This document shows, one piece after another, positions 7,689-41,552 of a stretch of DNA of 64,000 nucleotides. The position numbers and the translations under genes are program-made. Every line of letters begins with the position of its first letter. Positions within the stretch are counted from its first letter, which is position 1. Location of the stretch: NCBI GenBank assembly GCA_021432635.1, contig MU270030.1:942464-1006463 (forward strand), in the 5' to 3' direction. The DNA comes from Thozetella sp. PMI_491. Taxonomy: Eukaryota; Ascomycota; Sordariomycetes; Chaetosphaeriales; Chaetosphaeriaceae. The notes beneath the pieces are model-generated. The model saw only the letters and a program-made list of their open reading frames with translations. It was not told the DNA's origin and made no database searches.

Positions 7689-7704
7689 GCCCGGTTAGCT
7701 CAAT

Positions 7705-7754
7705 GTAAGGCGCCTTGCAGCCCCCTACAGTATCTGTTACTAACCCATAAACAG
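7705..7754 (+). other. Spliceosomal-intron-like insertion in the tRNA D loop
   Basis: 50 nt starting GTAAGG and ending AAACAG, with a perfect TACTAAC branch-point box at 7738-7744 whose branch A lies 11 nt before the 3' end. Length, donor, branch point and acceptor match the U2-type introns of protein genes in this window. Exact removal restores an uninterrupted D loop (CAATCGGTA) identical to that of yeast tRNA-Lys(CUU). It does not resemble a tRNA-endonuclease intron, which sits at 37/38. Confidence 0.75.
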
Positions 7755-7775
7755 CGGTAGAGCGTGAGACTCTTA

Positions 7776-7782
7776 AAAAGGC
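7776..7782 (+). other. Canonical tRNA anticodon-loop intron
   Basis: Seven nucleotides (AAAAGGC) after position 37 of the tRNA, the standard place for an intron cut by the tRNA splicing endonuclease. Removal leaves a 7-nt loop. Confidence 0.75.
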
Positions 7783-7818
7783 ATCTCAAGGCTGCGGGTT
7801 CGACCCCCGCATCGGGCT

Positions 7819-8294
7819 CAATTCCTGATGCGCCTTCTCTGAAGGTACGCGACCAATTTTTTTGTTGACTTTGTGGGACCCACTCTCGTGAGGCTCTTCG
7901 CGGTTCTCAAGAGGACCCATTGTTTTTCCCCCCCCCCCTTTTTTTTTTTTTTTTTTTTTCTTTTAGCGCCCAACTGACCAAATCCAGGGCCACAATGGTA
8001 TCACACTAATCGAAGGCCATGCGATCTTCTCACCATGTGCTCTGTCTTAGGCGAAAACTCGAAATATAATTGCCCATTGTCTTCCGAGTGTTTTCGAGCA
8101 CCAGCTAGCAAGCAACGAGCCAGAATGCTGGCACCCGGCAAGCCAAAAAAAAAAACCCCCCCAAATTACAATAGGCGGATTAAGGAATCCACTTTTAGGA
8201 CAAATTACAAAGAAGTTAGGTCTCTTCGCGAGCCTAGACGACGGCGAAAAAGCATTACGTATTATTATTATTATTTTTCTGTCTCACACGGCCC
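7819..8294. other. Spacer with long C/T homopolymer tract
   Basis: Holds the downstream T-run of the tRNA gene and a long pyrimidine tract at about 7926-7965 (a C run then a T run). The plus-strand open frame 8035-8565 overlaps the GH5 gene on the other strand and has no recognisable domain. 8300 onwards is the GH5 3' end. Confidence 0.5.
7857..7863 (+). terminator. Candidate RNA polymerase III terminator
   Basis: Run of seven T on the coding strand, 39 nt after the tRNA 3' end. No closer run of four or more T is present, so this is the likely Pol III stop if the gene is transcribed by Pol III. Confidence 0.5.
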
Positions 8295-38696: not shown

Positions 38697-41193
38697 TTAC
38701 CTAGAGGCCAGGTCGTAGAGGTTCGCCCACTCGGTCTCGTTGTCCGCGTGGACGACGAGGGGTATATCGTTCTTCTTTTCCACCACGAGCGTGTCGCCCT
38801 TGAAGTAGGCGAGCACGCCGCCCTTTCCGTCTCCGCGGGCTGTGATCCTGTAGAGCGGGCCCTCGACGTGCGCTTTCTTGCGCTCGGGCATGAACTGGAG
38901 CTCGTTCTCCTCGCACCAATCCTCTGTGACAGACCGGAATGTCTTCTCCTCGGGCTGTTTAGTAGGAGTTTGTGGGGCCTCGCGAGAACGCTGGTGCTGC
39001 TTGTGGGCGGCGTGCTTCTCATGCACCTTAGAGTCCCTAGTCTGGAGGGCGGGTGCTGCCTCCGGGGGCTTGAGCTCAGCCTTCGCCCGGTCCCCGAGAT
39101 CCAGGGCCTTCTCGATGAGCGTCGTGCCCTTGGCAAATTCGGCCGCGACCGAGGGGAGGTCCTTGACGTCGGCTAGAGCGACGTCATGCCACCACTCGAA
39201 CCATTGACCAATCTCGTCGTAGCTCGCGTCGTCCAGGATGAGCCACTGGTAGAGGGTCTTGTGCCACTGGGGAAAGACTCCAGCCGCAATGACTTCGCCA
39301 ATCATGGAGGGAGGGATGACATCGACCCACTTTAGGATCCCCTCTAGCATCTCCATGTACGGTTCTTGGTCCTCTGGGGCAACGCGGAAATTGGTCTTTA
39401 GGTAGCGTGCCATGCTCGGGAGGAGATGGTTCATGACCAACGGTTCCCACTGGTCGCTGCCCTTCTTCGGCCGCAGGACCTCCTTCCATTGCTTCAAGCC
39501 AGGGATTACGCCCCGGTGGAAATCCCAGGCGTCGATGAGCTGGCGGAACTTGCGACGCACGTCTGAGACGAGACCCGAGGAGCTCTTGGGGTCCAGGTGA
39601 AGGCCAGGCAGGAACTGCAGCCAGGGAAAGATCCATACGTGAGGTAGGCTGTGATGGTTCTTTCTCTTCGGCTCCCACTTCCTGACAGCGTCGTCTAGTT
39701 TGCGAACAATGTCCTGCTCCAGCAGCTGCTTGCGGATGAACCCCGGCAAAAGTGGCTGCCAGGCCTCGAAAAGTGCGACCATCTGGTCCGAGTGCCGGGG
39801 GTTCCATTCTCGGATGGCGCTGGCCACCCGGGGAAGCCACAGCTTGTACATCATGGCTTCGTAAGGAGTTCCAGTGCGATGCACCTTCTTCGGTGGCTGC
39901 TGCAAGCCTAGGAGGCTGCCGATCGAGGTGAGTCCGTCGACGAAGCTGGGCTTTGGCTCTTCGAGTGGATTCCAGGCCTGGAGGAACTCCTTGAAGGTGG
40001 GGTGGATTGCCGCGACGGCCAACGACGAGAGCTCGTCTCGTATTTGCGGCAGCATGGTGCCAGTGATGGAGTCATTGGCAGCCTTCAGCCCTGCGATGAT
40101 CTTGGATAGCTTGATGGAGAGCTCCGTGCGTTTGTCCGGCTCTCCGTTCTCTGGTGGCTGCGCGATATCTCGGCAAGCAGCCATGATCGAATTATTGCCT
40201 TGGAGGCTCGCTGCCAGCTCATCCAGCTCCTGCTTTTCCTGCTGCAGCTGCAATTCCAAGTAAGCCTTGCGCTCCTGCAAGCTTTGCCACTCCTCTAGGA
40301 TAGCCATGAAGTCGTTCTGGGCCCGGCGGGCAAGCTTGCGGGACTCTGCTGCCTCGGCCGTCTCCGGTGGAGCGGATGATCCGGTGGGTGTCATGAGCCC
40401 GGACGACGACGTCAGCATCTTCTGGCTGCGTCCCGTCAAGTCAAGAATGGGGGTGAAAGCGTCGGGGATGTTCAAGCCAGGGGCGGCTTTCTTGACCTCA
40501 TCCATGGTAAGATACTTCGGCTTTTGGCGGATCGGAGTGCTCGCAGCACTGCCAGCTGCGCTTCCGCCGGCTAGTGCCTTCTTCCGGCGGGCTGCCTTCT
40601 TCTTCTTCTCTTCCTCATCTGAGTCTATCACCACCTCTCCGCGAAGGCGAGCCTGCCGCTTTTCTTCCTGTTTCTCCTGCTCCGACTTTTCCCTGACAGC
40701 GCCGAGACCGATTTTCTGCGGGCGCAAGTTCGCCTCGATGATGAGGTTCCGACCCTGTCCCTCCGAACCAAGACCTTGGCCCTCGACGTAGCCCATCTTG
40801 GCCATCATGCGAGCGCCGAAGGACATAGGATTGATCTTCGCTTTGCCCCCTTTGCCCTGGCCAAACGCACTAGGCATCGCGGTTTTCGGTGTCGAGGGGC
40901 CATCGTCTTTGACTTTTAGGACGGGTTCGGCGGCAGAGGATGGTACGAAACTGGTGCCTGTACGGGAGGCCGAGCCGGATTTCGACTTGACAAATGACTT
41001 GGGGGGTGCGCCAGTGAGCTTGCTGAAGATCTCCTCCTGCGCCGGCGGTCTCCAGCCCATCCCCAAGCCAGCTGCGGCAGGGCGCGAGAAGCCTAGACCA
41101 CCATCCCTTGAGTCTTCTTCATCCTCGTCGTCCTCGTTATCGACGGTGGCACCGAGACCAAGGCCCATGGTTCGGGGCTCGTCATCATCATAT

Positions 41194-41226
<33 letters not shown>

Positions 41227-41552
41227 TTGTCGTCGTCGTCGTCGTCGTCTGAATCGTTGGCCTTCTTGCCCGAAGACACGAAACTGACGCCTTTGGTTCG
41301 CAGGTTCTTGCGCTTGAAGCTCCGACCGCCATCATCATCCTCGCTGTCCGAGCCAAATACCCCAAGAGCCGCGCTCTCCTTCGTGTTACGGTCGGTGCGT
41401 CGTCGCTTGCGGGGGTTGTAGTCGGCAAATTCGCTGTCATGCGGGTTGCGCGACGGCATGAGGTACTCATTGTCCTCGTCGCCTTCAGACTCGGACGACG
41501 AGTAGTCGGCCGCGCTGGCCTTCTTGAGCATCGCGGGATCAAAGCGATCCAT
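38697..41552 (-). CDS. TFIP11: TFIP11/Ntr1-like G-patch splicing factor
   Basis: Nuclear protein of the tuftelin-interacting-protein-11 (yeast Ntr1/Spp382) family, which recruits and activates the Prp43 helicase for spliceosome disassembly. Intronless, 951 residues. Residues 1-130 form the acidic TIP N-terminal region with long Asp and Glu runs and a basic patch RKRRR. The G-patch lies at about 240-285 (ARMMAKMGYVEGQGLG, then EGQGRN). Residues 290-330 are basic and charged. The GCFC domain covers about 400-800, with WEPLVMNHLLPSMARYL and WKEVLRPKKG. The end (after about residue 860) carries the typical EDWCEENELQFMPE block. Length, order of domains and motif content match the family. The start at 41552 gives MDRFDPAMLKK, a usual beginning for fungal members. 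Confidence 0.93.

Follow-up and report, generated by a model that had tools for sequence, protein, structure and literature searches.

A nuclear tRNA-Lys(CUU) gene of this fungus is interrupted by a 50-nt insertion. Judged from its sequence, this insertion is very probably a U2-type spliceosomal intron of the ordinary kind, and one of many such introns in tRNA genes of the genome. The gene is located at positions 7689-7818 of the window, by which we mean the whole stretch of 64,000 nucleotides that was analyzed, on a contig labelled C16 in a genome of 72.3 Mb and 157 contigs. It consists of three exons and two introns of different types (Table 1).

Anatomy of the interrupted tRNA-Lys(CUU) gene

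The GTAAGG start of the insertion, its TACTAAC box, its CAG end and the distance of 11 nt from the branch A to the end were all found at the coordinates given in the initial annotation (Table 1). Removal of both introns in silico gave the 73-nt tRNA that had been proposed there, which ARAGORN called as tRNA-Lys(ctt) and for which the minimum-energy fold is a cloverleaf. The acceptor, anticodon and T stems, which are the stems covered by our scoring of spliced sequences (the D stem was left out), are fully paired. After joining of the exons, the stems, the CTT anticodon, the T loop and a downstream T-run of a nuclear tRNA-Lys(CUU) were all present, and the tRNA may be expressed and charged. With the insertion in place, ARAGORN identified zero tRNAs in the window, and the Rfam tRNA model scored only 17.7 bits on the unspliced gene (gathering score 29), with a match restricted to 7753-7810. 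Since ARAGORN found no tRNA and the Rfam model stayed below its gathering score, tRNA finders may miss such genes, and we caution that they may list them as missing.

At the sequence level, the window intron has every testable feature of a U2-type spliceosomal intron. Its donor GTAAGG fits the consensus GTRNG, its acceptor CAG fits YAG, and exact excision in silico restores the intact exon sequence of the 73-nt tRNA-Lys(ctt). The junction is unambiguous by sequence, because the base that precedes the intron is T while the last intron base is G, and the base that follows it is C while the first intron base is G. The insertion is located at tRNA position 16/17, off the canonical position 37/38, which is occupied by the separate 7-nt intron. 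The internal A box of tRNA genes covers positions 8-19; the intron splits this box, of which the first nine bases are kept, and leaves the B box intact. The branch box TACTAAC, with its A 11 nt before the intron end, fits the motif RCTRAY at 6-36 nt before the acceptor (motif and range from PMC5832005).

We removed each GT-CTRAY-AG stretch of 44-65 nt on both strands and searched for an ARAGORN tRNA across the resulting junction. In the window, a tRNA was created at one of 14 candidate stretches, which was the Lys(CUU) intron, as compared to none of 19 in the reversed window. Among the other loci (252 kb, overlapping), 99 candidates yielded five distinct introns, all of them in Lys(CUU) genes, as compared to none of 65 in the reversed loci.

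The initial annotation had also stated that the splice signals match those of the protein-gene introns in the window, which could be checked in part. A crude coding-potential predictor suggested five candidate introns of 52-84 nt (uncurated; a first run gave one), with donors GTGAGT, GTAAGA, GTAAGT, GTGCGT and GTAGGC and with the branch A located 10-22 nt upstream of the intron end. These five predicted introns are compatible with the signals of the tRNA introns, but they are too few for a splice-site profile.

Table 1. Features of the window tRNA-Lys(CUU) gene (window positions) and further tRNA genes with GT-AG introns (contigs; introns by tRNA position).
Feature	Location	Strand	Description
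Exon 1 of tRNA-Lys(CUU)	7689..7704	+	tRNA positions 1-16
Spliceosomal-type intron, 50 nt, at 16/17	7705..7754	+	donor GTAAGG 7705-7710, acceptor CAG 7752-7754
Branch box TACTAAC	7738..7744	+	predicted branch A7743, 11 nt before intron end
Exon 2	7755..7775	+	tRNA positions 17-37, including anticodon CTT
Canonical 37/38 tRNA intron, 7 nt (AAAAGGC)	7776..7782	+	ARAGORN, insertion at 37-38
Exon 3	7783..7818	+	tRNA positions 38-73, B box inside
Long 3' trailer	7819..7856	+	CCTGATGCG at 7824-7832 can pair with acceptor/T-stem 3' strand CGCATCGGG
Trailer hairpin CCTTC/GAAGG	7833-7845	+	within the long 3' trailer
Seven-T run	7857..7863	+	likely Pol III terminator (putative role, from sequence)
Lys(UUU)	C21		intron at 22/23, 58 nt
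Glu(CUC), two genes in tandem	C36		introns at 29/30, 53 and 52 nt
Gln(CUG), two genes in tandem	C23		introns at 33/34, 49 and 48 nt; second gene also 51 nt at 18/19
Ile(AAU)	C6		intron at 24/25, 56 nt
Leu(AAG)	C91		intron at 25/26, 57 nt
Ser(UGA)	C9		intron at 15/16, 54 nt, donor GTGGGA
Arg(CCU)	C103		intron at 18/19, 58 nt, poor donor GTCCGT
Arg(UCG)	C119		intron at 14/15, 52 nt, donor GTATGT, acceptor AAG
Gly(UCC)	C74		intron at 31/32, 50 nt, donor GTGAGT, acceptor AAG; one anticodon-stem mismatch

The Lys(CUU) loci of the genome

A search by exon sequence identified seven Lys(CUU) loci in the same 72-Mb genome, all of which (7/7) contain a GT-AG insertion, five at position 16/17 and two at 46/47. 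The insertions at 16/17 are 50 nt long in the window gene on C16, 61 nt on C12, 52 and 50 nt in the two copies on C36 and 51 nt on C58. The two insertions at 46/47, of 52 and 53 nt, are found in a tandem pair on C67 with an intact D loop. In the assembly around this pair (C67:8000-17999), 7018 of the 10,000 bases are N. Whole tRNAs were obtained after splicing from the genes on C16 and C12 and from both genes on C67; the T arms are broken or missing in the two C36 copies and in C58, that is, in three of the seven loci. A CTAAY box is present in six of the seven insertions, with its A located 11 nt (four insertions) or 12 nt (two insertions) before the end, and the insertion that lacks it is that of the truncated C58 copy. 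In shuffled interiors, a CTRAY box with the A 9-15 nt before the end appeared in 3-4%.

The exons of the two C67 genes are identical and their intron interiors resemble each other no more than shuffled sequence (z 0.1), with GTAAG, CTAAY and AG kept in both. The interiors of the C16 and C12 introns are barely similar (z 1.8), and the C36 pair was the only one of six pairs compared that was clearly related (z 6.5). Retention of splice signals during drift of the interior is the trace expected of selection for splicing, and the Lys(CUU) set is our cleanest sequence evidence, since it was found from exons alone.

An uninterrupted Lys(CUU) copy was not found in the same genome with three patterns spanning different parts of the exons. 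The pattern for the 3' end (up to three mismatches) matched four places, all of them Lys(CUU). The pattern for the 5' end (up to two mismatches) matched 29 places, of which seven were Lys(CUU), and ARAGORN identified zero tRNAs in the loci of the remaining 22. The pattern from the D arm to the anticodon (up to two mismatches) matched eight places, the same seven Lys(CUU) loci and one place with two mismatches. These results argue against the suggestion, which we consider very unlikely, that the interrupted loci are dead copies and that uninterrupted genes, which would be absent from the assembly, located in N stretches or too divergent for the patterns, supply the functional tRNAs. The broken T arms in three of the seven loci and the 7018 Ns around the C67 pair would fit such a scenario, as would our partial tRNA census of the genome (63 of 1545 candidates scored, 45 matches) and the search for Lys(UUU) and Gln(CUG) with a single pattern each, with mismatched places left out. 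Yet dead copies would not be expected to retain splice signals amid diverging interiors, and the exons are whole in four Lys(CUU) loci, one of which has changed in a compensatory manner: the C12 and C16 genes differ at four bases, two of which represent a compensatory change at pair 28-42.

The possibility raised in the initial annotation that the window intron was gained recently is unsupported, as the interiors have diverged and a search for the intron with up to three mismatches in 35 nt revealed no further copy. The same lack of a second copy speaks against the insertions being copies of one mobile element, an introner-like element or a short transposon, that mimics splice sites. The large number of tRNA genes struck at different positions is what a spreading element would produce, but a mutual comparison of 17 introns revealed no match longer than 11 nt, and we regard a mobile element of this kind as extremely improbable. 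Introner-like elements form many near-identical copies within one genome, and neither result supports this class for the introns studied here. Old and diverged introner copies may be their origin, which is compatible with splicing.

Further tRNA genes with the same design

Other interrupted tRNA genes were searched for with donor-anchored patterns (GTAAG...AG...B box), which demanded no branch box, and branch-anchored patterns (CTAAY...AG...B box), which demanded no donor; the matching stretches were then retrieved and spliced in silico. The donor patterns gave 2, 19 and 24 matches, as compared to 0, 26 and 25 for reversed-pattern controls, and the branch patterns gave 16 and 14 matches, as compared to 10 and 27; we covered 15 of the 19 and 16 of the 24 donor places, and 8 of the 16 and 12 of the 14 branch places. 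Raw counts were thus mostly no higher than those of the controls, and the case outside Lys(CUU) therefore depends on the tRNAs that are restored by splicing. The splice tests were limited to stretches that contained GT, AG and a branch-like box, so that these features are not independent evidence outside the Lys(CUU) set. For the four genes recovered with branch patterns (Ser, both Arg and Gly), for which the donor was demanded to be GT only, a G was found at position 5 in all four.

Among the 24 stretches fetched for the donor and branch patterns, ten contained an interrupted tRNA gene (one of them two such genes), one contained part of the Arg(CCU) gene and thirteen contained none; the Arg(CCU) gene and the second Gln(CUG) gene, of which the start was cut off, were completed from additional stretches. 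Splicing restored whole tRNAs from 11 further genes with nine further anticodons (Table 1), where intron positions and anticodons outside the window were assigned by hand from the spliced sequences. In total, whole tRNAs were recovered from 15 loci (four Lys(CUU) and 11 others), with 16 introns, ten anticodons and 11 positions, or from 18 loci with 19 introns if the three broken Lys(CUU) loci are added to the count. Besides the GT-AG intron, 12 of the 15 whole genes have an intron of 6-30 nt at 37/38, which is lacking in Ser(UGA) and in both C67 genes. The second Gln(CUG) gene (C23, about 78117-78305) contains three introns, two of the GT-AG type and one of 16 nt at 37/38, and was recognized by ARAGORN as tRNA-Gln(ctg) only once both GT-AG introns had been removed. 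ARAGORN names differed from the hand assignment for Ile(AAU), named Thr(agt), the first Gln gene, named Pyl(cta), the Lys gene on C12, named Leu(caa), and Arg(UCG), named Arg(tct); in these four cases ARAGORN placed the 37/38 intron elsewhere. The best RNAfold structure was a cloverleaf for 7 of the 16 spliced sequences. Genes without a GT-AG intron also exist for Glu(CUC) and Ile(AAU).

All 16 introns of the whole genes start with GT, which the splice-test scripts imposed for those outside Lys(CUU); 12 have the donor GTAAG and the others GTGGGA, GTATGT, GTGAGT and GTCCGT, of which the last, in Arg(CCU), is off consensus. The branch box is CTAAY in 15 introns, several of which lack an R before it, and TTAAC in one, with the A located 9-14 nt upstream of the intron end. 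The acceptors are CAG (11 introns), TAG (three) and AAG (two). Group I and group II introns have a large catalytic RNA core of hundreds of nucleotides; with lengths of 48-61 nt, the tRNA insertions are too short for such a core, and both classes were rejected.

A possible tRNA-Leu(UAA) at C33:54420-54563, with GTAAGT...TTGCAG between positions 34 and 35, was left out of the counts, as it has no CTRAY near the acceptor and a doubtful second intron must also be removed for its anticodon stem to form. A repeated stretch with ...GGGGCTT(G/A)TA... was observed at C10:126311, C21:99843, C28:395896 and C9:836586; it ends with GGGTTCAACTCCCA in the two copies fetched and is perhaps a tRNA-derived repeat. 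A scan of viral contigs for the interrupted exon gave no match.

The 3' trailers of the Lys(CUU) genes are long, with a T5 run at 38-51 nt in all six copies, as compared to a T run at 0-39 nt (median 3, with one that reaches 39) for 29 other tRNAs of the Rfam list. The trailer motif CAATTCC(T/C)GATGC can pair over 8-9 bp with the acceptor strand in five of the six copies, and the arms of the hairpin that follows this pairing element covary at four of six pairs in an alignment of five distinct Lys(CUU) genes (C67b left out). A role of the long trailer in keeping the precursor open for splicing has become less likely, since in 12 other interrupted genes, including the possible Leu(UAA), a T4 run is located at most 13 nt from the tRNA end, as expected of Pol III genes.

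Proposed splicing of tRNA precursors, precedents and consequences

Removal of U2-type introns by the spliceosome from tRNA precursors made by Pol III is the best explanation for these sequence patterns; 12 of the 15 genes have a 37/38 intron as well. As mRNA-type introns are located within tRNA genes, maturation of the tRNA should need both the mRNA splicing machine and the tRNA-cutting enzyme. The suggestion made in the initial annotation, that the intron is of the spliceosomal type and that the precursor may need both machines, hence gains support from the GT-AG ends in all seven Lys(CUU) loci, the two insertion positions, the kept signals and the nine additional anticodons. We infer transcription, excision, the order of events and the dependence on the spliceosome as follows. 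RNA polymerase III would transcribe the interrupted gene, and the nuclear spliceosome would recognize the donor, the CTAAY box and the AG, so that the intron of about 50 nt would leave as a lariat. The joined RNA would then fold as a tRNA and its ends would be trimmed, and the tRNA endonuclease and ligase would act last in removing the 37/38 intron.

Canonical 37/38 introns, which likewise interrupt nuclear tRNA genes and are present in the same precursors here, are cut out by the tRNA endonuclease based on position and structure according to the accessible text of PMC4033280 and PMC13149111. Such introns lack GT, branch and AG signals, and the introns described here are located at 11 other positions by hand numbering. 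Ectopic tRNA introns are known from Cyanidioschyzon merolae and the nucleomorph of Guillardia theta (excerpts of PMC4033280 and PMC3978253). These are also located away from 37/38, including in the D loop, but those of C. merolae are of the bulge-helix-bulge (BHB) type and those of G. theta often have no defined BHB, and in the excerpts of PMC3978253 they are not described as spliceosomal. In the excerpts of PMC8450103, archaea are the only organisms for which noncanonical tRNA introns are mentioned, and PMC8216456 yielded nothing of relevance.

The insertions might be removed by a tRNA splicing endonuclease that is less strict about position, as proposed for C. merolae, with an incidental GT-AG look. 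Ectopic introns in the D, anticodon and T loops of a eukaryote do exist in that species. In our test of BHB pairing, one to two of the four central pairs could form at each of seven junctions, and a score of two of four was likewise obtained for two ordinary 37/38 introns; since the test fails on ordinary introns too, absence of a BHB is not demonstrated. An enzyme of this kind would leave unexplained why all seven Lys(CUU) insertions have GT...AG ends and six of them a CTAAY box with the A at 11-12 nt, and the yeast enzyme is said in the excerpts of PMC4033280 to cut strictly at 37/38. We therefore give very little credence to a relaxed endonuclease and favor removal by the spliceosome. 

Spliceosomal splicing also has precedents outside mRNA. 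Spliceosomal introns occur in the rRNA genes of euascomycetes, which are likewise ascomycete hosts with a non-Pol II transcript, although the host there is a Pol I rRNA, and U6 is a Pol III gene. According to the accessible text of PMC5832005, U3 snoRNA and U6 snRNA stand alone among small structured RNAs in that their genes are known to contain introns often; in fungi, these introns are of the GT-AG type, with an RCTRAY branch box and YAG, at several positions, and those in U3 are common in Pezizomycotina. The tRNA introns resemble them in all these signals, in the short, structured non-coding host and in the multiple positions, but differ in that the hosts are tRNAs, that they span ten anticodons and that 12 of the 15 whole genes have a 37/38 intron as well. 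The fungal U6 genes (PMC5832005) are a precedent for a spliceosomal intron in a Pol III-type transcript. Among open full-text papers in PMC, to which our search was confined, we found no description of a nuclear tRNA gene with a spliceosomal intron. What is new here is the type and number of genes that host the introns, together with the fact that a Lys(CUU) gene free of such an insertion is apparently absent.

Codon usage suggests that these tRNAs are required by the cell: the main codons for lysine and glutamine in seven window ORFs (3808 codons, introns left in) are AAG (175, as compared to 32 AAA) and CAG (107, as compared to 26 CAA). With a single anticodon-arm pattern for Lys(UUU), the sole exact match was interrupted, and four further places with two mismatches were found, as compared to five matches in the control. 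An exact uninterrupted anticodon arm of Gln(CUG) was not found with a single pattern, which gave six places with one mismatch, as compared to four in the control. It seems probable from the gene sequences that spliceosomal introns have become widespread among the tRNA genes, with at least ten anticodons, eleven positions and up to two introns per gene on top of the 37/38 intron, that lysine decoding and perhaps that of the Gln codon CAG would be wholly dependent on the spliceosome, that tRNA supply and mRNA splicing would be coupled, and that this class of disrupted tRNA genes is new.

If the introns are excised as the sequences imply, the spliceosome can act on tRNA precursors that are short and fold tightly, even where the first exon is a mere 14 nt long, and a single RNA is processed by two splicing machines that are unrelated to each other. 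Spliceosomal intron gain in non-coding genes, the interplay of tRNA folding and splicing, and a limitation of lysine tRNA under splicing stress thereby become testable.

The window also contains protein genes, and the HET, NPHP3_N, TRI12 and DUF3112 domains identified in their products suggest a filamentous ascomycete. A protein of 951 amino acids encoded at 38697-41552 on the minus strand contains TIP_N, G-patch and GCFC domains, the same combination as in TFIP11/Ntr1, a factor for spliceosome disassembly; no link between this protein and the tRNA is implied.
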